NCBI GenBank assembly: GCA_937873455.1
Contig: CALMYG010000022.1
Coordinates: forward strand, 124,001-188,000
Source of the DNA: an uncultured Verrucomicrobiota bacterium
GTDB taxonomy: Bacteria; Verrucomicrobiota; Kiritimatiellia; CAIVKH01
Direction of reading: 5' to 3'
Length of the DNA: 64,000 nt
The notes under the pieces were generated by a model. It had not been told where the DNA came from. It did not search any database and saw nothing but the letters and a program-made list of their open reading frames with translations. Numbering within the stretch: position 1 is the stretch's first letter; every line of letters starts with the position of its first letter. The position numbers and the translations under genes were made by a program. Positions 9,406-53,154 of the stretch are shown piece after piece.

Positions 9406-11178
9406 ATGCCGGGCGGAAACGGCAAATGGGATGCATTTAATCGCGGGTTGGGACGCCACCACGTCGCCGCCGCGGTGGCGGCTATGGTCGTCTCTATCGG
9501 CGTTCACGCCCTGTTGATCGCCCGGGTGGAGTCCTTGCCGATCCGGTCCGCCGCCGGCGGCCCGGAACGCCCGCGGTTCGTGCCGATTGAGATGGTAGAG
9601 GTCCGGCGTGAGCCGCCTCCCCGGGAGGAAGCCGTCCCGCGCGAACCGCTGGATGCACCTTCCGTCGAGGTTCCGTTCGCCGAAGACCCTGAGGAGGTGT
9701 GGACCGAGATGGCCACGCCCGAGCCGCCCCGGTTGCCGCTTCCTGATCCGGTGATGCCGGAGGCGCCACCGACTGCTCCCGATACTGAACCGCCGCCACT
9801 GGTACGTCAGGAAGTGCTCGCCATCCCCGAAGCCTTGTTGGCCGAAGACGTCATTGCGCTACCCAGGCGCTGGGACAACGCCGATATCCCCCGGATGGAG
9901 CAGGCGCCGGATATTCAGTTGCCGGTTGATCTTTCCGGAGACGCCTTGACCGCCGGTGCATTCGACCCCGCCGCGGTGGCCGCGTGGATCAGCGATACGG
10001 AAATCGGAACCCCCGACTGGTCGGCGGTGATTGGGTCGCGCGGCCGGAATAACGGACTGGCGCCTACGACGACCGCGCTGCGCCCGGTGACTCAGTCGGA
10101 TGCCACCCTCGATGAACGGCCCGAAGATGTGAGCCGACTCACCGGCATTGAAGATCTGCTTCAAGTCCGCATCCAAGGCTATCGTGACACGGATGGCTAT
10201 ACCTATTTCGCCCTTCAGGTCGAGCCGGCGCCCGATGCCGCTCTCACCGTGCAACCACGGGATATCCTGCTCATTCAGGACAGCTCCGCGAGCATGACCC
10301 CGGTCAAGATTGACGCCTGCCGTCGCGGATTGAAGCGCTGGCTCGACTTCATGAATCCCGGCGACCGCCTGGAAATTATTCGCTTCAGCGACGACATTCA
10401 ACCCGCGTTTGGGGCCTGGCGTACCTACGATGCCGCCACCCGTCAGGACGCCTTTGCGTTTATTGATCGTATCCGGGCTTTGGGCAATACTGACCTCTTT
10501 CGTTCTTTGCAGTCCGCCTTGGCGGTTGAACGCGATCCCGCCCGCGCCTTGATGATGGTATTGATTTCCGATGGCCGTCCTACGGTCGGGGTTACCGGAA
10601 GTTCAGAAATCATCGAAAGCATCACCCGCGCCAATCAGGGGGGCATGTCGATATTCGCGGTTGGCGGCGGTCCCAAGGTGAACAGCTTTTTCTTGGATCT
10701 GTTGAGTTATCGCAACCGCGGGGAAGCGGTTGTTGTCCGGGACACCGAGGGCATCGTTACCGCCGCGGAGGCGTGGGCCAAGCAGTTGCGCCGTCCCGTA
10801 TTGACGGATTTGTCGTATCGGTTTTCGCGGATAGATCCGGCGGAAATTTACCCGAAGCAGCTTACCCATCTGTTTCTGGACCGCCCGCTGATGATACACG
10901 GACGTATCCCCCAAACCGATGACGCCATTGTTTTCCAAGTAGTCGGCCGGGCCGGGGAAGCCTGGCATGATTTCGTCTTTGCTTTGGATCAATCCGCGGT
11001 GACCGGCGGTCCGGCCGAGCTGAGACGTCAATGGGCCTGGCAGAAAGTTTATCACATGATCGGCGATTACATCGGGGATGCCACGCCGGAACGGTTGGAG
11101 GCGATTCGCGCATTTTCCGATCAGTACGGATTGATCGTGCCGTACGGTTTCAGCCGGGCCCTGCCGAGGAGTATGTAG
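9406..11178 (+). CDS. Membrane-anchored VWA-domain protein with TonB-like proline-rich stalk
   Basis: 590 aa. A short cytoplasmic tail and one membrane segment (about residues 24-43, AAAVAAMVVSIGVHALLIA) are followed by a long Pro/Glu-rich stretch (50-150) of the kind that spans the periplasm in TonB-like proteins. Residues about 285-480 form a von Willebrand factor A domain with an intact MIDAS, DSSAS at 292-296 inside ILLIQDSSASMTPVK, so a divalent-metal-dependent adhesion or protein-binding role is likely. It starts 6 nt after rho and ends 2 nt before the next gene. Its partner is unknown. Confidence 0.75.
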   Translation: MPGGNGKWDAFNRGLGRHHVAAAVAAMVVSIGVHALLIARVESLPIRSAAGGPERPRFVPIEMVEVRREPPPREEAVPREPLDAPSVEVPFAEDPEEVWTEMATPEPPRLPLPDPVMPEAPPTAPDTEPPPLVRQEVLAIPEALLAEDVIALPRRWDNADIPRMEQAPDIQLPVDLSGDALTAGAFDPAAVAAWISDTEIGTPDWSAVIGSRGRNNGLAPTTTALRPVTQSDATLDERPEDVSRLTGIEDLLQVRIQGYRDTDGYTYFALQVEPAPDAALTVQPRDILLIQDSSASMTPVKIDACRRGLKRWLDFMNPGDRLEIIRFSDDIQPAFGAWRTYDAATRQDAFAFIDRIRALGNTDLFRSLQSALAVERDPARALMMVLISDGRPTVGVTGSSEIIESITRANQGGMSIFAVGGGPKVNSFFLDLLSYRNRGEAVVVRDTEGIVTAAEAWAKQLRRPVLTDLSYRFSRIDPAEIYPKQLTHLFLDRPLMIHGRIPQTDDAIVFQVVGRAGEAWHDFVFALDQSAVTGGPAELRRQWAWQKVYHMIGDYIGDATPERLEAIRAFSDQYGLIVPYGFSRALPRSM

Positions 11179-20572: not shown

Positions 20573-23500
20573 CTACTTCAGGCGCAGGGCAAGGCGCCAG
20601 AAGGTGGGATCGACAGCGGCGCCGGTGGCATTGGTGTAGGCGTAGTTTCCTCCGCCGGTATGTTGCAGGGCGGCCGGAATGTCAACCCAGGTCGCACCCA
20701 GATCGAAGGTGCGCTGGAGGATGAAGTCGAGGTGCGCGGCGTAAGCCGGCGGGAAGGTCCAGGCCACTTGCACCGATGTTACGTTAAGCGAGGTGATGGT
20801 AACTTCCGGCAAGGCCAGGGAAGCGGGCGGCGGAGCGCCATAACTTGCGGGAACGTGCGGGTCGGTGCCGTCCAGAAATGCCTGCAGGAGGGTGTAACCG
20901 CCGCCGAGATCGGCGAAGGGATCGTTGCCGAGCGTTCCAAAGAACAGCATTTCCCAAGCATCATCAAGCAGGTTGCCATCTGCATCGCCCGGCGATGGCG
21001 CGGGGATGCCGGTGACGTGGGCAAAGGTCATGTCGCCCAAGCGGATCGGTTCGAGGGTCTCGTCGGCGCACGGCGCGTCCGGCACATCGGCATAGGCGGT
21101 TACCTGGATCGTGATGCCGGGTATCATCGTGAAGCCCCCGGGAAAACGGAACGGCGAGCCATCCGGATGGACCAGCGCCGCCGTTGTCCCCATGCCCTCT
21201 CGGTCGAGGCGCGTGCAGGTGAGGCCGACTGTGTCAGGACGTACGACGAGACTGCGCGTCACGACGGGACGCGGCGAAGGGAGATCAAGCAACACATCGA
21301 GTCCGGCCAGGGCGCTGGTGTAATCGCTGGAGGTGAGGGGGGTGAGTTGCGGAGCGATGGCGGGAGGCAGGCCGTTGGTCCAATCGTTGCGGTAGGCGGG
21401 ATGCATCACGCCGGTGGCAAGGAAATCGCGCAAGGTATCAAGCGGATTCGGGAACGCTCCGGGGAAATGTCCACCCCATCGTGCGCTGATGCGGTAGATG
21501 TCGAGGGCCACATTGCGCAAGGAGGCCATCTTGGGATCATTGGAGTCCCGGATCGTCTGCCGCAATGACTTGACGGTCTGGGCGAGTTGGTGCCCGGTGT
21601 CGGTTTCGGATTGATAGTTCTCCAAGGCGACCAATTGTTCCGGCGTGGGCAGGAGCAGGCCTGAAGCGGGACCACTTTCCGGTATGGGCTTGGCCGGCTC
21701 GGAAGCGCGGTAGCTGGTGAGGGTGAGGCGATTGGTATTGCGCTCGCCGGGCGTGGGTAGGAAGGAGGCGGGCAGGAGGCCGCGCTCGACAAAGCGGCGG
21801 GTGACCCACTGTTCAAAGACAAGGGTCAGCAAGGTTTCCAGCGTGTCCACGGTGGCGCCGATGCTGGGTGGATGGTTTGTTGCGTAGTAGGCGATGGCGG
21901 CGGCGCGCCAAGCGGCGGCTTCGGTGGCATCGTCGCCGCCACCGTACACGTAGGAGAAGCCAACCGGCGAGGCGGCGGGCAAGGTCACCAGTCCGGCCAT
22001 TTCACGGCCCTGGAATGGATTACCCGGATCGTAGGGCGGCGAGAAGTTCAAGGCGTAGGAGGCCATGGTCCCGGCGACGGTAATGTTGGCCCGCCCGCCG
22101 CGCCCAGCCCGCTGAAGCCAGGCGGCCGTCTGGCCCGCGCCGAAAAAGCCCCAGTGGTAAGCCAGCTCGCTATCGAGCGGCTCGCCACTGACATCGTAGA
22201 GGGTGATGAGGTTGCCGGGATTGGGCACACCGTTGGTCAACAGAAATCCAGCGACCAGGGTGGGGATGTCACTGGTCGTGAGGCCGTCATGCGAATGCGG
22301 TCGCACATGGAGATTCAGAGCGGTACCGGAGGTGTTCCGCAGGGGCACATTCGTACCATCAAGAATGATCTGGAGATAATTCAGGGTGGAGTTTTGATTG
22401 GTTTCCCCGGTCCGGTCGGGCAAGAGGATCGGATCATAGCCCAAGCCGATTTTGACGTAGTCGGGAATGCCGTCGCCGAGGGTGCTGAGTTCACCGGCGG
22501 GGACGGAGAATTGGTACAGACCTTCAAACACGGCGGTGCGGGCCGCGCCGGGACCGATGGCAAATGCTTGCACACGGGTGTTGCGGTGGAGCCAGACCGG
22601 CTGGGTGTAAAGCGTCCAGGTTTCGCCGGGGTTGGTGCGGAAAAAAACGTTGGCCCCGGCCGGCCCGCGCAGGTTCAAGGCGACGGCGGCGGCATAGGTT
22701 CCGGGGACCGGGTCGGCGGTGATCGTGCCGAGGGCGGGTCCCTGCGCGGCATCCACCGGGAAAAGCGAAATTTGTGCATGCACTTGGTTGACCATGACAT
22801 GGGTGGTTCCGGCGGGAACGTTGCCCAAGCCAACCACGGCGGGTTGGGTCAGGCCGGTCGTGGCGCCAGCATAGACCTCGCCGGTGGCGGCATAGCCGAT
22901 GCCGATGGCCGAGCCGACTGACCAGTCGCGGGCGCGGCGGCGGTTCAGCACGGTGGCGCCCGGCGTGACGAAGGGTTCACCCGCGTAGGCGATAACATTC
23001 CCGGCGCCGCTGGTGTCGGTCACGGCGGCCAGCGCCACGTCTTGAATAAGATCGTAACCGGACGTTCCGGCGTTGAACCTATAACTCAGCGCGCGCGTGG
23101 ATCGTCCGCTGGCGGACAAGCCGGAAAATAGCTGGAAGCCGTTGAGTCCGGCGGGTGTGGCGGTTGCTCCGGTGAATTGCTCGCCGGCAGGCGGAAGCAG
23201 GACGGCGGTGGCGTTGGTGTCGGCCGGGTCGTTGCGCACAACGGCTTGACTGCCATCGGCGGCAACAAGCAGGAGGCTGGCATTGGTGCCCGCCGCAACC
23301 GCGGTAACTTGTCCCAGCGCGAAGGGCGCGGAAACCGTGGAGGCGCCCGCGTGATTGTAGTTGGTTCCGGTGAGGGTAATTGCGCGCACATCATAGCTTG
23401 CGGCGTTGGGAATCCATGTCACCAGTTGCCCGAGCGGGCCATGAAAAGGATTCAGCATGTAGCGGGCATTGGTGGCGATCCCGCTCACGGACAGGCGCAA

Positions 23501-24271
23501 CGGAGTTCCGGTTTCGCCGAGCGATACGACGCGCAGGGCCGCGCCGCCGGAGGCTATTTCCAGGAAAGCGACTTGTTGAACATCGCCGGTGCGCAGAACC
23601 ACGCGGTCGGCCCGGTCATAACGGCGCGTGGAGGACTCGGCGATTACCGTGCTTCCGGTAAATATCGTGCTTCCCGTACCGACCCAAAGTTGCGCGCGGT
23701 TTTCCGGTAGTCCATTCAGAGTCGACGTGATCAACAAATCTTCAAACGACCCGGTGCCGGTGATTTCGCCGGCCACCACCGAAAGGGGCCCGACAATGTT
23801 TGGATGATGCCATGCCGCCACCACTGGTTGCATATTGGTGCTGAGCGTGCTTAAGAAGTTCAATCGTCCGGCCATGGGTGTTGTGAGCACGATGGAGTCG
23901 CGGCTGGTATTGATAAACCGTCCGGCGGTAACGGACGAAACGTGGTAGATGCCGCCGGCATGCGGACGCGTCCAAAGCAACTGGTCGGTGGTATTCGTCT
24001 GAAATCCGATCCGAATGGCTCCGGATGCACGGTCGACGACGATGGCCTCGGACCGTCCGTCGCCGTTCATGTCGGCATAACCGGTGATTTCAACCGGCCC
24101 GACGTGGAAGCGGGAGGGCGGGAGCGGAGAGGCGAAGGCGGGGATGACGAAGAACGAGAGCGCGATAGTAGCCGCTGTCGTGAGACAGCGGAGGATGCGG
24201 CCGGAGGGTGACGCATCCGCGCTCTCATGAGCGCGGCTACCAGTGCGGATTATGTCGCTAAACATCTTCAT
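20573..24271 (-). CDS. Giant secreted protein, FG-GAP-like N-terminus (third gene of the trio)
   Basis: 1232 aa, not recognised as a whole. Signal peptide with a long charged N-region (about 1-47, ending VIPAFA). Residues about 55-460 show FG-GAP/VCBS-like repeats (YADMNGDGRSEAIVVD, TAGRFINTSRDSIVL, EITGTGSFEDLLIT), which usually form a Ca-bound beta-propeller. Near 535-615 is a chitobiase C-terminal-like segment, then GDGIPDYVKIGLGYDP, a TSP3-like turn. The C-terminal end (ITSLNVTSVQVAWTFPPAY) looks FN3-like. It follows the 1098-aa gene with a TGATG overlap. A 73-bp REP pair encodes residues about 11-35. Surface adhesion or binding is only a guess. Confidence 0.7.
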   Translation of the reverse strand: MKMFSDIIRTGSRAHESADASPSGRILRCLTTAATIALSFFVIPAFASPLPPSRFHVGPVEITGYADMNGDGRSEAIVVDRASGAIRIGFQTNTTDQLLWTRPHAGGIYHVSSVTAGRFINTSRDSIVLTTPMAGRLNFLSTLSTNMQPVVAAWHHPNIVGPLSVVAGEITGTGSFEDLLITSTLNGLPENRAQLWVGTGSTIFTGSTVIAESSTRRYDRADRVVLRTGDVQQVAFLEIASGGAALRVVSLGETGTPLRLSVSGIATNARYMLNPFHGPLGQLVTWIPNAASYDVRAITLTGTNYNHAGASTVSAPFALGQVTAVAAGTNASLLLVAADGSQAVVRNDPADTNATAVLLPPAGEQFTGATATPAGLNGFQLFSGLSASGRSTRALSYRFNAGTSGYDLIQDVALAAVTDTSGAGNVIAYAGEPFVTPGATVLNRRRARDWSVGSAIGIGYAATGEVYAGATTGLTQPAVVGLGNVPAGTTHVMVNQVHAQISLFPVDAAQGPALGTITADPVPGTYAAAVALNLRGPAGANVFFRTNPGETWTLYTQPVWLHRNTRVQAFAIGPGAARTAVFEGLYQFSVPAGELSTLGDGIPDYVKIGLGYDPILLPDRTGETNQNSTLNYLQIILDGTNVPLRNTSGTALNLHVRPHSHDGLTTSDIPTLVAGFLLTNGVPNPGNLITLYDVSGEPLDSELAYHWGFFGAGQTAAWLQRAGRGGRANITVAGTMASYALNFSPPYDPGNPFQGREMAGLVTLPAASPVGFSYVYGGGDDATEAAAWRAAAIAYYATNHPPSIGATVDTLETLLTLVFEQWVTRRFVERGLLPASFLPTPGERNTNRLTLTSYRASEPAKPIPESGPASGLLLPTPEQLVALENYQSETDTGHQLAQTVKSLRQTIRDSNDPKMASLRNVALDIYRISARWGGHFPGAFPNPLDTLRDFLATGVMHPAYRNDWTNGLPPAIAPQLTPLTSSDYTSALAGLDVLLDLPSPRPVVTRSLVVRPDTVGLTCTRLDREGMGTTAALVHPDGSPFRFPGGFTMIPGITIQVTAYADVPDAPCADETLEPIRLGDMTFAHVTGIPAPSPGDADGNLLDDAWEMLFFGTLGNDPFADLGGGYTLLQAFLDGTDPHVPASYGAPPPASLALPEVTITSLNVTSVQVAWTFPPAYAAHLDFILQRTFDLGATWVDIPAALQHTGGGNYAYTNATGAAVDPTFWRLALRLK
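24168..24240. repeat. Inverted pair of 25-nt REP units (BIME-like), copy A, inside a coding region
   Basis: Two 25-nt units face each other across 23 nt. Unit 1 (24168-24192, plus) is GTAG + CCGCTGTC/GACAGCGG stem with a GTGA loop, ending in A; unit 2 (24240-24216, minus) is GTAG + CCGCGCTC/GAGCGCGG with an ATGA loop. A leading GTAG and a short palindrome are hallmarks of REP elements acted on by RAYT transposases. The outer ends (GTAGCCGC/GCGGCTAC) can also pair. It lies 31 nt after the start codon of the 1232-aa gene. Confidence 0.85.
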
Positions 24272-27200
24272 CAGAATGTCACATCATTGGTAACCAGGAT
24301 TTCCTCGACTTCCCGGGTGACCGGGTCGAGCAGAACCAGCAGGTACCGGTACACCGAGCGGCTGACCCCGGGCTGGGTGTCCATCAGGTACATGTAACCG
24401 GGATCGGTGGGGGTGGCCGACGCACCGACCGGATCCTTGATGTAAATATAAGGGTCATAAATGGAATACCCATTCGCAATGCCGGCCCAGGCGATCATTT
24501 CCATCAGCGGCGAGACCTGATAGACATCCCCGGGCACCTCCGGGTATTCGGTGCTCGGCAACTGGGTGCGGTAAAGAATAAACGGTGCAATCCGCCGCGG
24601 CGTCCCTTCGCCCAACCGGTTGTAAACCCGGTTAAGCGGGTCTTCAGCCGGGACCGTCGTGATCAGAAACTGGTCGTTGGTAAGATTGTAGGCGATACGG
24701 CCGACCACTTCACCGATCCGCACCATGCCGCCGCCATGGATGGGATTCACCTCGGCGATGATGCGGGGATGGAAATCGGAGGCGTTACGTACCGGCGGTC
24801 CGCCGCGTACCGGCCAGGGCACGTTGGGAAATTCGTATACCTCCGGAGGGGTCCACGTGAAGGTTTCGCGGTTGCTCAACTTGGTTTGACCGCCGCTCAC
24901 CGTCAATCCGCGCACCCGGACATTGAATGAATCGTTGAGGTCAATGGGCAATTCCAACTGAAACCGCGATCCGGAACCGAAACCGTTGCGCAGGTCGGTG
25001 GTGATATAACGCCGGTACGAAACGGGATAGGCAACGACCCGGTCCAAATAAACGAGATTGGACACCGTGCCGTCAGGGATCAGCGGCAGTCCCGCGATGT
25101 GAACCTCGAAATTGCGGGTACCCCAGCGCGGAGCGAACCAGGTGATGCGGGCGAGAGCGTTGGATTCGTCGCCGACCGGGCGAATTGGAGCCAGCATCGG
25201 AGCGGGAGGTTCGAACTTGAAGCTCAGCCCAATGCAACCGAGCGGCTTGAGCGGGCTGGGATTGCCGTGCCGATCGAACACCTGGACGAAGAAACACGAT
25301 TCCTCGCCGAACAGCGGGCTGGAAAGCCAAAGGTTGGTGATCGAAGTGTTGGTGGGGAATTTTCCGGACTCTTCACGCAGAAGCGTAAGCGGTCCATCGT
25401 CGACCCGGTAATACAATTTGTACTGCGTCATGTCGGGTGGCGGAAAAAATTTGATGGTGATGCCGTCGTTGGTGCCGCCGCCAATGTCCTGGGGAGGCGG
25501 CGTATGAGCGAAGCAGGGTCGGCGACCGGCGGTGGGATCGAGAAACGCCGTTTCATAGCGGACGCCGACCGCCATGCTGACCACTTCAACCTGCAGGCCG
25601 GGAGCTGGCAGATTGAAGTCGTATTGAGGCGAGAGCTTCACGTCATCGCCGGCCAATCCGACCTTGGCTTGCAACCAGATGGGCAGGCCCGCCCATCCGG
25701 CAATGAACGTCAGGCGTTGGGTCATGACCAGCTCATCGTTTTCAAACGCAAAGCGTCCGAATGGGAAGCGCGCGGCGCCAACCCCCCAGTCAACTTCCAC
25801 CCAGTGCAGATTCGGATCGAGGTTTTCGCGGCTGATGACAATTTCAACGTTGATGAAATTGGCATTGATGGCTTCGTCGGGGCCGGCGGTACGCGGACTG
25901 AGTTGCTTGATGGTAATGGTTCCCTCAGGACACAGGATGTCCAAGCCGCCCACGGGAGCTCCCGGGCCGTAACGGTCGCGCAGGACACCATAAACCGGTG
26001 GGCTATGGCCGGAAACATTGCCGCCAAAGGGGGCCACCGCGCAGGCGGCGGCGTTGGAGGAGTTGTCGATGGCCCGGACGGTGTACCAGAAGGTCTTCGC
26101 GTAATCGGCGGGAGCGGACGGAGCGCCGGGTCCGTTGTCGAGGTAGGACTGAACCGGCTGGCCTTGAACATGCGGAACGATGGCGACGAGGTTGTTGGTG
26201 GGGTTGCCGCCGAACTCCATCAACGCGCCACTGCTTTGCCACCGGTAGATGGCATAGGCGGTGGTTTCCTTGTCGTCTTCGGGCGGATTGGCTTCCCAGC
26301 GCAGACGCAGGTTATGTTGCGCGGTATTGGTGAAAACGTATTCGTTGATCACATTCAACACACGGGGCACGCGCGGCGGCATGCGACTGCAGAAGGTGCC
26401 GAGCTCGCCCGCCGAGACTTGGCCATCACGACCAAGCAGATCGCGGGCGGTGACGAAGTAGTAGTACTGGTCGCCGTTTTGCGGCGGGGTGTGCGCGCCG
26501 GGATAACCGGGGAAACGCGATGCGTGATCGGTGGCGAAGACGGTGCGGTGGTCGTTGCTTTGGGCTTGAGCGGCATCAAGGGTCGCGCCGGGAAGGATCG
26601 GGGTTTGATTGACGCGTTGGACGTTGATGCCGACGGCGGCTTCAGTCAGCAAGGTGGCGGTGGCGGGCGGGGTAGTCGGCCAGTTGTTGGCTTCGGCGAA
26701 GGTCTTGTTCACACGCCAGAGATTGAAGCCGTGTTGGGCAAGGGTGAGCCGACGCAATGGATCGGGGGTGGCCCAGCGCAAGGGCACATTCAGGTCAGCA
26801 GTGGCCGGGCGATCGGGATCGGGTGGGGCCACGCGCAGGGTGGCGGGCGCGGGCAGGATCAGCGGCGAGGCGGCGTTGACGGTCACCCGGCCCAGCACCG
26901 CTTCGTCGGGCGCGTTGGCATACGGGCGATCGCGGATTTCAAACGTGACCGGGCCGCTGGATGGAATCGGAACCGCATGGGCGGTGCCGAGGGACATGGC
27001 CAGCGACGGAAAGGTGCGGGCGGCGAATTGCAGGGCTTCAAGAAATTGCGGCTGGTATTCCACGCCCTGGATGATGGCCGAGGCCAGTTCGGCGTTGGAG
27101 AGCGATGAATCGGGAATCAATTCCTCGAACAGTTCGTTCATCGCGGTGCGGGTGGCGTCGGTGTCTTCGCCGAGTACCAGACGGGCGCGGTCGAACAGCG

Positions 27201-27567
27201 CCCCGATGGCGGAGGGCGAGGTTTGCACCCGGACGAGTGCTTCCAGCGTAAAGTCGCCGGGATCCTGTGGGTTGCCGTCCTTGCGCCACACCGACCATAC
27301 GCGGGGGGTGAAGGCATCGAGTACGGTCGAGCGCCAGTGCAGGTAGGCCCAATGCTGGCCGTTGGTTTCCACGGTCAATCCGATGGTGTAGATCATCGGG
27401 TCGCCGGGCTGGGCGTGGGCGGTGGGGGCGAGAAAAGATAGGTTGAAAACGAGGAATGCAAACGTAGCCGCCGTCGTGAGGCGGCGGATGAACAGCCGTT
27501 TGGGTAATGACTCCGCGTTCTCACGAACGCGGCTACGAATTGACGTTGTATCCTTCATAACCATCAT
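24271..27567 (-). CDS. Giant secreted FN3-like protein (second gene of the trio)
   Basis: 1098 aa, not recognised as a whole. Signal peptide ends about residue 52 (FLAPTAHA, then Q). Residues about 55-260 hold a domain rich in small helices and strands; about 240-590 contain fibronectin-III-like modules (LRLRWEANPPEDDKETTAYA, AKTFWYTVRAIDNSSNAAA, DQYYYFVTARDLLGRDG). Further beta-rich modules follow; the last 250 residues contain ITTVPAEDPLNRVYNRL and a closing strand VEEILVTNDVTF. It overlaps the upstream 1818-aa gene by 4 bp and the downstream gene by 1 bp, so the three form one transcription unit. A REP pair encodes residues about 11-35 at exactly the same offset as in the downstream gene. 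Confidence 0.7.
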   Translation of the reverse strand: MMVMKDTTSIRSRVRENAESLPKRLFIRRLTTAATFAFLVFNLSFLAPTAHAQPGDPMIYTIGLTVETNGQHWAYLHWRSTVLDAFTPRVWSVWRKDGNPQDPGDFTLEALVRVQTSPSAIGALFDRARLVLGEDTDATRTAMNELFEELIPDSSLSNAELASAIIQGVEYQPQFLEALQFAARTFPSLAMSLGTAHAVPIPSSGPVTFEIRDRPYANAPDEAVLGRVTVNAASPLILPAPATLRVAPPDPDRPATADLNVPLRWATPDPLRRLTLAQHGFNLWRVNKTFAEANNWPTTPPATATLLTEAAVGINVQRVNQTPILPGATLDAAQAQSNDHRTVFATDHASRFPGYPGAHTPPQNGDQYYYFVTARDLLGRDGQVSAGELGTFCSRMPPRVPRVLNVINEYVFTNTAQHNLRLRWEANPPEDDKETTAYAIYRWQSSGALMEFGGNPTNNLVAIVPHVQGQPVQSYLDNGPGAPSAPADYAKTFWYTVRAIDNSSNAAACAVAPFGGNVSGHSPPVYGVLRDRYGPGAPVGGLDILCPEGTITIKQLSPRTAGPDEAINANFINVEIVISRENLDPNLHWVEVDWGVGAARFPFGRFAFENDELVMTQRLTFIAGWAGLPIWLQAKVGLAGDDVKLSPQYDFNLPAPGLQVEVVSMAVGVRYETAFLDPTAGRRPCFAHTPPPQDIGGGTNDGITIKFFPPPDMTQYKLYYRVDDGPLTLLREESGKFPTNTSITNLWLSSPLFGEESCFFVQVFDRHGNPSPLKPLGCIGLSFKFEPPAPMLAPIRPVGDESNALARITWFAPRWGTRNFEVHIAGLPLIPDGTVSNLVYLDRVVAYPVSYRRYITTDLRNGFGSGSRFQLELPIDLNDSFNVRVRGLTVSGGQTKLSNRETFTWTPPEVYEFPNVPWPVRGGPPVRNASDFHPRIIAEVNPIHGGGMVRIGEVVGRIAYNLTNDQFLITTVPAEDPLNRVYNRLGEGTPRRIAPFILYRTQLPSTEYPEVPGDVYQVSPLMEMIAWAGIANGYSIYDPYIYIKDPVGASATPTDPGYMYLMDTQPGVSRSVYRYLLVLLDPVTREVEEILVTNDVTF
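27464..27536. repeat. Inverted pair of 25-nt REP units (BIME-like), copy B, inside a coding region
   Basis: Same design and length as copy A. Unit 1 (27464-27488, plus) is GTAG + CCGCC.../...GGCGG; unit 2 (27536-27512, minus) is GTAG + CCGCGTTC/GAACGCGG with a GTGA loop. The stems differ from copy A by paired changes (GCTC/GAGC against GTTC/GAAC), so pairing is kept while sequence drifts. The 23-nt centre is unrelated to that of copy A. It lies 31 nt after the start codon of the 1098-aa gene. Confidence 0.85.
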
Positions 27568-30500
27568 TTCACACTCGGCTTTGATCCCTTGGCTTTGCCG
27601 CCGCCGGTTTCGGTGGTAAAGGTCACGCGGCGCGAGGCCTCAATACAGGTGGGGCACAGCCCGATTTCCACATAGACCGTTCCTTGGCCCTTGAGTTTGA
27701 ACTTGGATCCCTGTTTCAGGCCGGCGACGTCGAGTTGGCCGCCCAAGCTCAGCATGCAGAGGGCGTCGCCGCTGACCGACAACATTCCGCGTGCGCCGTA
27801 GGTGGGACCTTCGACGAAATAGAAAATGCCCAATCCCATGCCGGCGGTAACCTGGAAGAAACACGAGGCCGGAATCCCGAGCAGGGCTTCGGAAACCGGG
27901 ATATGCGCTTCGCCGTACACATAGGCCCCGCTGAACGTCGGTTTAGGTACGCCCAGCGCGGTCACGACAAACATATCCCACTGGGCGATGGGAGCGAGCG
28001 AGCAGGTTTGGCCAAAGAAGATGCCGCCCTTGGCCTTGTAACCGTTCATCTTCATGCCCAGCGCGGCGCTGACATAATTTTCCTGCGAACCGAACGAGAT
28101 GGCCACCGCGAGATCTTCAATGGAGAACGCTTCGAATGCGACTTTGCCGTCGGTTTTGTTAATCATGCCGACAAAGTTGACCGGGGTGAGGCTTCCATCG
28201 TTTTCGACATCGAAGGTAAACTTGGTCTTGATGTCGACGCGGAGATCGGGGCTTAGAAAGTCGAACGGGACGTTGATAGCTCCGATGGTTACTTCCGCCG
28301 TGTCCTGCCCGACATCACCGCACAGGTTTTGATCCGGACTGGATTCGTACTGGTTGATTTCCATGAACGCCTGGAATTCGGTTTTTTCGGGAAGAGCCCA
28401 CTGGAATTTGGCGTCGAGGCGCACCTGCCGCATGGCATCGCCGTTGAAGTGGGCATGGCCGGTCATGGCCGCGCTGGCCATGGAACCGCTGAACGGCCCC
28501 AGCACATCCTTGAAGCCGAGGTCGAGATCCAACAGAATCGATGTCAACGCATCGCGGATGATGATGTTGATGTTCGCGAAGGTGGAGTCGATGGCATTGC
28601 GGAGTGCGCCGTTCAGGTCGAAGAGCCGCTGTTTGAGCGCGCCCTGCACGCCGGCAACGTACGCGCTGCCGTACAGTTCATCGGTAATGGTCCGGCGCAG
28701 TTTCTGTTTCACCACGCTTGGCGAGGCGAGGTTGAAACGGTTCACGCTGTTGAAGGTTCCCAGATAGCCTTCGAGCACCACTTGAATCCGGTCATTGATG
28801 GCCGGAAATTCATTGTTAAGCGCCTGGTTGAGCAAGGCGCTCAACTCATTGCCCAGTTCACCGTTGACGGCATTGCTGGCGCTCGCGAAGGCCGCGCCCA
28901 ACTGCTCGCAGGTGTCGCGTAGATCGGCGAGCGACGGCGTGGCGCCGGTCAGGTACGGCGCGATCAGGGCATCCAATTCGCCCCCGGTCAACGCACCTAC
29001 CACGGCGGCGAGGTTGGCATCGATTTCACTCACCAGCGCCTGGATCAGGGCGCGGGCGAGTTCGCGCACGGCGGAAGGATCGACGCCGCCGGGGCCGGGC
29101 TTGAGCAGTCCGCTGTTGGCGATAAATGCCTCCAGCGCGCGCGCGGCCTTGCCGATGGAGTCGCGCAGGATGGCCTGTTGCGGTGCGCCGAGCTTGGACC
29201 AGACCAGCGTTTCCACCACTGGCGCCGGCCCGCCGAAGAAATTGGTGAGTACCGGGGCGGAACCGCCAATCCAGTTGGTGCCGGACCAGCGGGTCAGGAG
29301 ATGCGCATAGATCTGGTTGACCAGCAGGTCGACCGAAGGACCAATCACCCGCTCGAAGTGATCCTGCATTTGATCGGCCAGCAAGCCATCCAGGCGTTCG
29401 ACTCCTTCGTGAAGCGGCTGGACAACCACCGCGCCGAGGGTGTCGTTGATCACCTGGGCCACGCCAAGGGCATCGCTCACTTCATTGATGACCATGTTCG
29501 CGAGGTTGATCTGAGGCAGGCCGGCCTGGATGCCGAAGCGCACATCCGCGCGCTCGGCGCTCAAGTAGGCCAGGCGCTTTTCGACGTTAACCAACAGGAA
29601 GTCCTCTTTTACCGGGTTCACCGAACGGAAGGAACGCGTGCCGAAGTCCCAGCGCACCGGCAAATTAAATTCCACCGCCCCGTTGAGCCAATCCTGCCGG
29701 GCGCGGACAAAATAGGTGGAGTTGGTCCGGTAGTTCCTGAGCTGGGCCGCCGTGGTCCCGTTGAAGCCCCGGTTGTCGGGGTCGTGATAGCCGGTGCCGA
29801 AATAACTTTTCGCCGGCGCGCCCCAGGTGCCGTTGGCCACGAATAGTTCGGCTGAATTCCAGGGGCCTGGCGTGTTCGGATTCGGGGGCGGACGGTGCGA
29901 GGCGGTTTGGATGTGGGCGGGGATCGACTCGAAAAACGACACGCGAACCCGGCCGGGTAAATTCATGAAACCGACATTCAGCGGAGCGGCCGGCGTCGAA
30001 CCCGGGAAGGTGTAGTTTGGCGCCGAGCCCACCACGTTAAAGAACGCGCCGATGGTGGGCGTGATCACATAGGTTTCGTAACCGGAAGCGCCTGGCGCAG
30101 AGCGCTTGGGGCCGCGGATGCGAACCTGCGATGGGGTGATCAGCCGCGAGTCGAGGTTGGTCGGGCCGCCGGATTTGGGAATAAAATTGCCGTGCGGGAA
30201 AACGCCCAGTTTGCCCTGGAAGGAATCGGTGACGTGGGCCATGTAGGCATCAACGCCGAGAGCGAGGAAGCCGTTGCCGGGATTGCATAACTGCGAGGCG
30301 TCGCGGGTGAACTCGATGGCCGAGACATCGATCGGTGCCTGCCAGTAACTTGCGATGATCGCTTGCGGGCCGTCCTTGACATCCGCTTTGTCCAGCGCGC
30401 CGTTGCAGAGGAACATCAAGCGCTCGAATTGATTGCTGGCGTCGGTGGGGAAGGGCAGGTAGAGGCTACCCTCGGTGCGGGAATCCACATTGGAGTTGGA

Positions 30501-33020
30501 CAGGAAAGCGAGACCAAAATTGTTGAACGTAAATTGGTAGCCGTTGATGATGACCTGCTCGGGCGAAGTGCCGACCTTGTCGTGAATGCCGGACACGCCG
30601 CTGCGGCGGGCGTAGTATTTCGAACGGCCCTTGAGATCATAGGGACCGTACACGCCGCCGCCGAGCGTGCTTTCGCCCTTGAGACCGGATGCGGTGGCGG
30701 AATTTGACGGCCCGGCGCGGAAGTTCATACCCGCGTAGTCGGCAAAGCCGTTCCAATAGGTGGTAAGATTGCCGAGACGTTCGGTCACGGTGCCGCTCCA
30801 GGGATCAGCGCCGGATAGCAGGATCACCGCCGGACGGCGATTGACCGGATACTCGCCGAGAATGGTGTTGTACTGCCCGTGCAGGAAGTGGCCGGGAATA
30901 TGAACGCTGGCGTTCGTGAACGGATCGGTGACGTGGGCATGGCGCCCGAGGGTGTTGATCCAGCCAAAACGCAAGGGGAAGGCCGTGGTCAACGCACCGG
31001 CTCTGACCACGCCGCCGTCGGTGGTGAAGCGGAGGGGTTGCCCGGCGGCGGCCAAAGATACGTTGGTGGGGGTGGTGTCGCCGCATGACGGATACACGCA
31101 ATCGGCGGAGACCGAAACCTGAACCACGCTGGCCGCATTGATGAAGCTGTTGGAGGACACCACGCGGTCGTTCACGATATCCATCACGCCGTTGCTGGTG
31201 ACGGTAACCGCGCGATAAGGAAAGTGGGCGAGCAGAAACCAGTTTCCGGCCGCGCCAAAGGTAAAGCGCCCGGTCATTTCCGAACCGCCCTTGTAACCGG
31301 CGCGGACGGAAAGTTGGGTGCCGACCCCGGACACGGTGCGCCAATACATGTCGTTGGAAGGCTTCACTTGCTGGGTGCTGGGCACCGGCGCGGCGAGCAG
31401 GCGGGTGTACTGATTGGATCGCACATGAGCCACGCTGTTGGAGCTGAAGGTCCGGAAATCAAAGCGCCCTTCGTTCAGCCTCCACTGCACGCGATTGACC
31501 CGCACCGCCACGGGCTTGGATTCCTCGGCCACCCAGATCGGGCTGCTGCTGGTGATGACGAGATCAGCAAGGGGCAACAATTGCGGGCTGAGCACGTGAG
31601 GCCCGTCAAACAAAAACGAACCGTTTTGCGTACGCCGCGTCGCGTTGGTGGTCCAGCCCAATCCGGCGGGCAGGATCGGCTCCAACCCGCCGGCTTTTGC
31701 GCCGGCGGAATCGAGGGTCAGGTTATAGCGATAGAAATTGATGCCGTTCAGATTCGGACGGTCGATGCCGGGAGGCACGACGGCAATCGAAGACGGCGCG
31801 CGGACAAAGGCGTCGCCATTCGGGCGGAGGCCGATGTCGAGCAGGCCGGAAAAGGTAGTGAAGCCGGGATGGTTGTTCAGGCTGGCCCCGCCGTTGGGAA
31901 GGCCCAGCGTGGTGTGCACGTTGTTGCTGACCACGGATACACCGACGGTCGGAGTGTTGGTCACGGAAAGAATGGTGGTGGGGACATCGCCGAAATCAAG
32001 TCGGCCGTTGAAGTGTAGATAGCGCTGGGCCGGTGTGGTGATGGTTTGTGAAGCGAAAAACACTGGATCGAAGGGATTAAAGACCTCAAGATGTTGCAGG
32101 CGAACCTTGATGTTATAGGTTTGTCCCGGTGAATCGAGTTGTATGCCTGGTCCTGGTCGAAATGCAATGGTGCGGGCAAAGTTGTTGGAGGAGGGTCGCT
32201 CTAGTAACCCGCCTGCGGCAGGCAGGAAGGTCGGCATGGCGGGCTGATTGGTTTCCACGAGCAAGCCCTCGGCTAGAGCGATCGGGGTATTCGTGTCCGC
32301 GTTTCCGAAAAGTTCCACTTCATACCTGATCAGCACCGGATTGGTGAAGGCCGATGCGACCGGGTCGTCGTAACGATGCAAGCTGAAGTTCAGGTTTGCG
32401 GTAAAATTGGTGGCATTGGGATCGGTGTCCACCAGCCAACGCCGGGATAAGTTGACCGAATTTAGCGTGGAAATGATGTTGAAGGGGGCATCGTTGCTGT
32501 AGCCATTGCGGAAATGAATAAACCGCCGGTTCGGGGATTGATTGGTTCCGACGAGGGTGCCGTTTTGGAGTCGAACTTCGGCCTCCAGGCGATAATTCGT
32601 GTATGGATCGAGCCGGGCCGTGGGCAACAGGTTCGTGGCCAAGTTGTACGTATTGGTTCCGGCCGGGAAGAAGAAGAAATTGGTCGTGGTAAAAATGGCG
32701 GTAGCCCCGCCCTGGAAAGGATGCAGGTTGCCCGTGGTCAGGTTGCGCAATTGAAATCGGGCTGACAGCAAAGCGCTATCGAATGCGCTGGTGGATACCA
32801 GGGTCACCGGCACCCGCACCGGGATGAGGTGCCGCTGGTAGTTCGTGGAGTTGCGGGCCGCGTCGGAATCGATCACGTAATGCGGGTTGATGTAGTTGGT
32901 GATGACGGGAACGCCGACGGTATAAGTCGGCTGAGCCTTCGCGGTGGTGGTAAGTAACATCCAAGCCAGTAGGACCCAGCCGAATGACCCCGCAACCAAT
33001 CGTATTGGGTGACCCGTCAT
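27564..33020 (-). CDS. Giant secreted protein with helical insert and beta-rich end (first gene of the trio)
   Basis: 1818 aa, unrecognised. Signal peptide MTGHPIRLVAGSFGW... cleaved after about residue 29 (TTTAKA). Residues 30-1170 are beta-rich and rich in Asn and Thr, with no repeat I can define. Residues about 1180-1510 turn strongly helical (ALGVAQVINDTLGAVVVQPL, LVSEIDANLAAVVGALTGG). Residues 1510-1818 are beta-rich again with many glycines and strands such as MGLGIFYFVEGPTYGARGML, then a CPTC motif and a Lys-rich tail. A lone -10-like TATAAT lies on the minus strand at about 33050-33055. First gene of the operon; its length and partners suggest a large extracellular or outer-membrane complex. 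Confidence 0.7.
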   Translation of the reverse strand: MTGHPIRLVAGSFGWVLLAWMLLTTTAKAQPTYTVGVPVITNYINPHYVIDSDAARNSTNYQRHLIPVRVPVTLVSTSAFDSALLSARFQLRNLTTGNLHPFQGGATAIFTTTNFFFFPAGTNTYNLATNLLPTARLDPYTNYRLEAEVRLQNGTLVGTNQSPNRRFIHFRNGYSNDAPFNIISTLNSVNLSRRWLVDTDPNATNFTANLNFSLHRYDDPVASAFTNPVLIRYEVELFGNADTNTPIALAEGLLVETNQPAMPTFLPAAGGLLERPSSNNFARTIAFRPGPGIQLDSPGQTYNIKVRLQHLEVFNPFDPVFFASQTITTPAQRYLHFNGRLDFGDVPTTILSVTNTPTVGVSVVSNNVHTTLGLPNGGASLNNHPGFTTFSGLLDIGLRPNGDAFVRAPSSIAVVPPGIDRPNLNGINFYRYNLTLDSAGAKAGGLEPILPAGLGWTTNATRRTQNGSFLFDGPHVLSPQLLPLADLVITSSSPIWVAEESKPVAVRVNRVQWRLNEGRFDFRTFSSNSVAHVRSNQYTRLLAAPVPSTQQVKPSNDMYWRTVSGVGTQLSVRAGYKGGSEMTGRFTFGAAGNWFLLAHFPYRAVTVTSNGVMDIVNDRVVSSNSFINAASVVQVSVSADCVYPSCGDTTPTNVSLAAAGQPLRFTTDGGVVRAGALTTAFPLRFGWINTLGRHAHVTDPFTNASVHIPGHFLHGQYNTILGEYPVNRRPAVILLSGADPWSGTVTERLGNLTTYWNGFADYAGMNFRAGPSNSATASGLKGESTLGGGVYGPYDLKGRSKYYARRSGVSGIHDKVGTSPEQVIINGYQFTFNNFGLAFLSNSNVDSRTEGSLYLPFPTDASNQFERLMFLCNGALDKADVKDGPQAIIASYWQAPIDVSAIEFTRDASQLCNPGNGFLALGVDAYMAHVTDSFQGKLGVFPHGNFIPKSGGPTNLDSRLITPSQVRIRGPKRSAPGASGYETYVITPTIGAFFNVVGSAPNYTFPGSTPAAPLNVGFMNLPGRVRVSFFESIPAHIQTASHRPPPNPNTPGPWNSAELFVANGTWGAPAKSYFGTGYHDPDNRGFNGTTAAQLRNYRTNSTYFVRARQDWLNGAVEFNLPVRWDFGTRSFRSVNPVKEDFLLVNVEKRLAYLSAERADVRFGIQAGLPQINLANMVINEVSDALGVAQVINDTLGAVVVQPLHEGVERLDGLLADQMQDHFERVIGPSVDLLVNQIYAHLLTRWSGTNWIGGSAPVLTNFFGGPAPVVETLVWSKLGAPQQAILRDSIGKAARALEAFIANSGLLKPGPGGVDPSAVRELARALIQALVSEIDANLAAVVGALTGGELDALIAPYLTGATPSLADLRDTCEQLGAAFASASNAVNGELGNELSALLNQALNNEFPAINDRIQVVLEGYLGTFNSVNRFNLASPSVVKQKLRRTITDELYGSAYVAGVQGALKQRLFDLNGALRNAIDSTFANINIIIRDALTSILLDLDLGFKDVLGPFSGSMASAAMTGHAHFNGDAMRQVRLDAKFQWALPEKTEFQAFMEINQYESSPDQNLCGDVGQDTAEVTIGAINVPFDFLSPDLRVDIKTKFTFDVENDGSLTPVNFVGMINKTDGKVAFEAFSIEDLAVAISFGSQENYVSAALGMKMNGYKAKGGIFFGQTCSLAPIAQWDMFVVTALGVPKPTFSGAYVYGEAHIPVSEALLGIPASCFFQVTAGMGLGIFYFVEGPTYGARGMLSVSGDALCMLSLGGQLDVAGLKQGSKFKLKGQGTVYVEIGLCPTCIEASRRVTFTTETGGGKAKGSKPSVK

Positions 33021-52257: not shown

Positions 52258-53154
52258 TCAACCGGCTTCAGCAAGGCGTCGCCATGAGCAAAGCGGCGTC
52301 GAGGAGCTTCCAGTTACCTTGGTCACCCGGTGTTGATGTGTTGTCTTGGGCTGGTGGCGGGACATGACGTCACGCAGAAAAATTTCCGAGCCGATGACCA
52401 GCCCGTTGGTCCAGTAGCGGACCCGCCGCCGGACGGTCAGCGTAAACCCGGACGCCTCTACGTCACGTTCCGCCTTCTCGGCGAGGGTTTGATCCATCCG
52501 GTGGCGAATCTCGGTCAACGACGAAAGGCCGAAGAGATCCTTGAGCATCGGCAGCATGCAAGCGGTCATGTTCTCTTCAAAGGGATGCCGCCCGGACTGG
52601 TGCCATGCGCCGTGACTGCAGAAGCGGTAGTCGGCGGCATCCTCGACCATATCGGCGCGTACGGGGTTGTTTTCGATATAGCTCCAGCAGGACCATACGG
52701 CCTGTCCGCTTTCGAGAATGGTGTGTTTGAACCGGTCGGCCCAGAGCGAACCCCGGCGTCGGAGCGGCCGGGTCCGGTTGTACCAGGCGGTGAAGAGGTG
52801 CTGAACATGGCGCATGAGCCAACTGACATCCCGGCACCGGGCCTGCCATTCCCGGCAGGCGGCGGAGTGGGGAGTCAGGGTTCGCTTCCCGCCATGAAAG
52901 GCCTGGTACCGGCGGCAGGTTTCCTCGGCGGTGGGCTGCTCGCTGGGCGCATGCACCAGCAGGTGGAAGTGGTTGGACATGACCTGATAGGCGACGATGC
53001 GTACGGTGTAAAGCCGACTGACCCGGTGAAGCAGGCTGATAAACTTTTCTTTCTCGACCGGACCGAACGGCAGGTCGGCGGCGGTTCCGGCAATCCGGTT
53101 GTAGCAGTGGTACCAGGTTGGCTGGTCATCGATTCGTATGCGGCTTCGTCTCAT
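52258..53154 (-). CDS. REP-associated tyrosine transposase (RAYT, IS200-like Y1 family)
   Basis: 298 aa. N-terminal WYHCYNRIAG and the HUH motif SNHFHLLVHAP (His62, His64) are diagnostic of Y1 transposases; the WADRFKHTILES and SYIENNPVRADMV segments with the candidate catalytic Tyr follow, then a longer C-terminal extension than in insertion-sequence TnpA. RAYTs are single-copy proteins that move short REP palindromes rather than themselves. REP pairs with GTAG ends occur in this window. It interrupts the region just upstream of the truncated surface-protein gene. Confidence 0.93.
   Translation of the reverse strand: MRRSRIRIDDQPTWYHCYNRIAGTAADLPFGPVEKEKFISLLHRVSRLYTVRIVAYQVMSNHFHLLVHAPSEQPTAEETCRRYQAFHGGKRTLTPHSAACREWQARCRDVSWLMRHVQHLFTAWYNRTRPLRRRGSLWADRFKHTILESGQAVWSCWSYIENNPVRADMVEDAADYRFCSHGAWHQSGRHPFEENMTACMLPMLKDLFGLSSLTEIRHRMDQTLAEKAERDVEASGFTLTVRRRVRYWTNGLVIGSEIFLRDVMSRHQPKTTHQHRVTKVTGSSSTPLCSWRRLAEAG

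Follow-up and report, generated by a model that had tools for sequence, protein, structure and literature searches.

Two adjacent genes for predicted secreted proteins in an uncultured Verrucomicrobiota bacterium each carry a 73-bp palindromic element exactly 31 nt from the first ATG. Both elements are very probably translated, as the n-region and the start of the hydrophobic core of a signal peptide. We consider it probable that they inserted a short way past the stop codon of an upstream gene, where this stop overlaps the start codon of the next gene, and were tolerated there as signal-peptide n-region. The exact 31-nt distance recurs in three genes of a second contig.

Two REPINs in adjacent genes

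The 64,000-nt stretch of DNA analyzed here (the window) contains four units that match GTAGCCGCNNTCGTGAGNNNGCGGA with 0–1 mismatch. None was expected from 100 shuffles. The units lie in two genes of one operon:

20573..24271, minus strand: gene 1, 1232 aa, predicted secreted; element at codons 11–35; predicted hydrophobic core IALSFFVIPAFA
24168..24240: REPIN in gene 1, 73 bp; units 24168–24192 (+) and 24216–24240 (−) with a 23-nt center; minus-strand reading SRAHESADASPSGRILRCLTTAAT
24271..27567, minus strand: gene 2, 1098 aa, predicted secreted; element at codons 11–35; predicted core FAFLVFNLSFLA with an AHA cleavage motif
27464..27536: REPIN in gene 2, 73 bp; units 27464–27488 (+) and 27512–27536 (−) with a 23-nt center; minus-strand reading SRVRENAESLPKRLFIRRLTTAAT
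27564..33020, minus strand: upstream gene, in the operon of genes 1 and 2, 1818 aa; predicted signal peptide of ordinary type, MTGHPIRLVAGSFGWVLLAWMLLTTTAKAQ; element-free

At both sites, the architecture is 25 + 23 + 25 = 73 bp with the units inverted. The distance from the first ATG (24271 and 27567) to the element is exactly 31 nt, and the reading frame is identical. Pattern match and coordinates confirm the original prediction on these points. The offset is counted from the first ATG, that of MKM... in gene 1 and of MMVM... in gene 2. Further in-frame ATGs precede the element by 25 nt in gene 1 (24265) and by 28 and 22 nt in gene 2 (27564 and 27558). No target-site duplication is visible at the element edges.

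The start of gene 1 overlaps the stop of gene 2 in TGATG, and the start of gene 2 overlaps the stop of the upstream gene in ATGA. The elements are 27 or 30 nt past the upstream stop and, because stop and start overlap, fall inside the next gene. In Pfam, gene 1 gave just a sub-threshold match to CHB_HEX_C_1, and gene 2 matched no family. A BLASTP comparison of the two proteins aligned just the first ~60 residues (E 3e-4). The bodies of the genes are unrelated, which rules out gene duplication as the origin of the paired elements, as had been argued from the sequence. Relatives of gene 2 were not found in 19 related genomes or in the genome_contigs set. A comparison with element-free orthologous operons had also been proposed, and the same search returned no such operon.

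Each unit forms a hairpin with a GTAG tag, an 8-bp stem, and a 4-nt loop. Across 24 units of the genome, 99% of the stem cells are paired. Changes on both sides of the stem were counted in 30 cells (shuffled mean 10.9), and the covariation score is 0.48 compared with 0.18 after shuffling. The stem variation is compensatory, as had been noticed in the four window units.

Probable translation through the elements

Past the element, the first in-frame codon of the type ATG, GTG, or TTG is codon 68 in gene 1 and codon 58 in gene 2. Both lie further on than the predicted signal peptide. Between the element and the end of the hydrophobic core, just the rare start codons ATC and CTG are available. 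Because no ATG, GTG, or TTG occurs in frame before the predicted end of the signal peptide, both pairs are very probably translated. A start downstream of the element would have spoken against their proposed role as signal-peptide coding sequence; no usual one lies before the predicted end of the signal peptide, and the proposal holds as very probable. Export of the two products is itself a prediction.

The element family in the genome

The window pairs are ordinary GTAG-class REPINs, a class of non-autonomous and presumably mobile palindromes. The units have the GTAG tag and a GC-rich hairpin, and many dispersed copies exist. With up to 2 mismatches, the unit pattern has 31 matches in the 4.12-Mb genome compared with 0 for a reversed control. 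A covariance model search returned 82 units at E up to 1. In the regions fetched from the genome, 70 units form 45 clusters; gene context was judged from these regions with a simple codon-usage gene caller. Tag, hairpin, inverted pairing, and genomic copies all bear out the identification as REP pairs.

Two inverted REPs with regular spacing are present at both window sites and in intergenic 73-bp pairs with the same spacing on contigs C173, C43, and C81. Inverted pairs of 72–74 bp also occur in genome G030. The length of exactly 73 bp was thus correctly reported for both genes, but it is usual for the family and not gene-specific. Other genomes of this class also contain the unit type, as do two named verrucomicrobial MAGs. 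This distribution by itself makes an origin of the window in Verrucomicrobiota, taken broadly, probable. Contig C43 additionally has a 96-bp sequence in three tandem copies downstream of a gene (L043:5372-5588); every copy contains a GTAGCTGC unit.

The family is mainly extragenic and near gene 3′ ends, and the window copies are among the exceptions. Most clusters near a same-strand upstream gene lie 9–75 nt past its stop. In this genome, 23 cluster edges follow a same-strand stop by at most 90 nt; for seven of these, the distance is 27–35 nt.

Six genes of the genome resemble the RAYT family of Y1 transposases. The one on C173 scores above the cut-off of NCBIfam REP_Tyr_transpos. One is in the window:

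52258..53154, minus strand: RAYT-like Y1 transposase, 298 aa; no flanking GTAG unit of the window family

Three RAYT genes adjoin their own, other GTAG families. In this assembly of 197 contigs, no RAYT gene closely flanked by exactly the window unit was found. Beside the RAYT gene on contig C101 is GTAGCCGCGCGCGATGAGCGCGGC, which by eye is like the window unit. On contig C67, tandem 93-bp repeats with GTAGCCGCTCCGTGAGCGGC units are on both flanks of a RAYT gene (L046:6869-8045), a REPtron-like arrangement of a different REP family. On C173, a small AbrB-like/Doc-like gene pair, judged by eye from the sequence to be of the toxin–antitoxin type, is between the RAYT gene and the 73-bp REPIN (L042:8820-9443).

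Recurrence of the 31-nt offset

The original prediction proposed a genome search for further copies at 5′ coding ends. This search gave three consecutive genes on contig C18 (L037), at 11087, 12454, and 13935, with elements at exactly +31 in an open frame. Their elements are 85, 112, and 56 bp long, with unit arrangements <>, ><>, and ><. The +31 elements are read in the same frame in all five genes on the two contigs. The surrounding region (L037:8543-15167) holds a tight run of five genes for secreted proteins. Four of the five are distant paralogues. Clusters at +31 are present in the last three genes and absent from the first two, C18a and C18b. Two of the element-bearing proteins are paralogous to one another (30% identity) as well as to C18a and C18b; the third is unrelated. 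C18a and C18b, the tandem paralogues, have a short signal peptide of the normal kind that begins immediately. In the alignment of the paralogues, the element lies within an N-terminal extension that precedes the hydrophobic core. The three element-bearing genes have an ATG directly after the element that could be the true start; because this start is available, translation through the element is only likely here.

A sixth case is on contig C49 (L126:482-537), where an ATG overlaps an upstream stop 31 nt before a unit. The unit contains a stop in the frame of this ATG, and 592 seems to be where the present gene starts. The start was possibly displaced by insertion of the element. In a TolC-like gene, also on C18, the cluster is at +62 and more degenerate. 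The six leaders between ATG and element share no visible sequence except the ATG, which excludes a common 31-nt leader traveling with the element.

To calculate the chance of such agreement, the stop-to-element distances of the other clusters were taken as a smoothed distribution. The probability of an in-frame element at exactly 31 is 0.07–0.16 per case, depending on the range allowed. The four matches beyond the first then have a rough and partly post hoc probability of 4e-5 to 7e-4. For the three C18 genes alone, taken as a test of the earlier +31 rule, the value is about 5e-4 to 4e-3, with the same reservations. Among all ATGs in the element flanks of this genome, offset 31 occurs six times compared with about 1.5 per offset, yet another offset also occurs six times; the weight of +31 therefore rests on the ATGs being gene starts. 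Something beyond a loose site preference may be acting at this position.

Reading frame and other in-gene copies

A unit read from GTAG has two of three frames open, and the in-gene GTAG-first units examined, in eight genes, all use the S-R-x-R frame (two-sided p = 0.008 for equal chances of the two open frames; small sample). This frame gives a polar, charged S-R-x-R-E-x-A, and LTTAAT can follow from the second unit, ahead of the hydrophobic core.

Units are also inside the coding regions of two adjacent genes on C101, which encode a GDSL hydrolase and a membrane/TPR protein (L039:6847-10485). This pair adjoins the RAYT gene with its own REP families. In another verrucomicrobial MAG, hypF (JALOTT010000034.1; L176:5891-5961) contains a 71-bp REPIN in the same frame. 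It adds SRARESADGRVGTADPRSHERGY where the solved HypF structure 3vth is gapped in the alignment, in the segment linking the zinc-finger domain to the YrdC domain. This is a clear-cut natural example of REPIN translation, and it independently supports translation of such elements. The copies in the HypF linker, the GDSL hydrolase, and the membrane/TPR protein look like tolerance. Of the proposed recruitment as coding sequence, translation stands as very probable, but these other copies do not suggest recruitment.

Possible origins of the arrangement

Tolerated insertion is the probable explanation. Copies of the REPIN would spread, presumably by a RAYT, and would settle mostly shortly after stop codons. 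In packed operons, where the upstream stop overlaps the next start, an element 27–35 nt past the stop would become the n-region of the next signal peptide. It would very probably be translated there, in the polar, charged S-R-x-R-E-x-A frame. Extra length and charge are tolerated in the n-region, so the insertion would be retained as a passenger; we infer tolerance rather than benefit, and export that still works. None of the lengths of 73, 73, 85, 112, and 56 bp is divisible by 3, so the events are not adequately described as simple insertions into a frame that already existed. Tolerance also leaves the exact +31 of the five genes unexplained, apart from a general preference for this zone.

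Selection could instead have placed or kept the REPINs at codon 11, either because the SRxRE/LTTAAT peptide is of use as an extended signal peptide or because translation of the coupled genes is set by the hairpins. This is unlikely, although the exact offset in five genes of two contigs and the single frame of the GTAG-first units in eight genes would fit it. The five 5′ regions also fold stably (z −1.7 to −3.5), but they take different shapes, which rejects a shared mRNA fold. Recruitment is further opposed by the copies in the GDSL hydrolase, the membrane/TPR protein, and the HypF linker, by the lack of an element in the upstream operon gene and in C18a and C18b, and by the C49 copy at +31 that is broken by a stop inside the unit.

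That same C49 copy, with its ATG/stop overlap 31 nt before the unit despite a closed frame, is what would be expected if transposition itself set a fixed distance from the stop/start junction and coding were irrelevant. We consider such targeting improbable. Stop-to-element distances overall vary between about 1 and 90 nt, and offset 31 shares its count of six flanking ATGs with another offset. In the REP-rich genomes G013, G057, and G059, no clear N-terminal coding case was found at +31, and the ATGA-31 matches inspected in other genomes were not gene starts.

It is very improbable that the starts are mis-called and the elements extragenic, as has been argued for many N-terminal REPs (PMC3733652) and as the ATGs right after the C18 elements would allow, since the window genes offer just ATC and CTG before the hydrophobic core ends.

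Relation to known systems

The available part of the work on GTAG REP families (Di Nocera et al. 2013, PMC3733652) describes families like that of the window: a GTAG tag, stems of 6–9 bp, inverted dimers, locations near gene 3′ ends, and some copies in ORFs. Intragenic copies, N-termini included, are reported there for many genera, with most in the verrucomicrobium Opitutus terrae. The view that in-frame palindromes are known mainly from Rickettsia is not supported by these data. A recurrent fixed offset in signal-peptide regions is not described in that part of the work. Many N-terminal REPs are suspected there to be mis-annotated starts, a suspicion that does not fit the two window genes. 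As in the REPINs described with RAYTs (PLoS Genet 2011, PMC3116915), inverted REP doublets and their spacer form one unit here, and RAYT genes are present in the genome; those REPINs are primarily extragenic, whereas several are within coding sequence here.

The Rickettsia RPE are similar in being palindromic elements in frame, some at N-termini and expressed (as described in PMC3733652). RPE are CGTC-type or longer (RPE-1), and the window units, which begin with GTAG, do not belong to them. In YPO1552, the enterobacterial repeat RU-2 is a mobile repeat that forms a predicted signal peptide (2007, PMC2759123). It belongs to a different, 168-bp element family and is found in single cases, and the accessible text describes no fixed offset.

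Insertion of REPs into genes is therefore already known, and the fixed +31 offset is the new part. The published doubt about N-terminal REPs concerned start annotation; the window genes are cases in which a REPIN is very probably read as protein at the N-terminus. They offer a testable system for mobile palindromes turning into signal-peptide sequence. If +31 were confirmed in close relatives, it would point to a new rule of REPIN insertion or retention. A stronger version, in which REPINs are placed or retained 31 nt from the start at the stop/start overlaps of secreted-protein operons and supply a standard n-region and hairpin, is rather unlikely. If true, this fixed placement would give a REPIN family a positional rule without counterpart in the literature examined.
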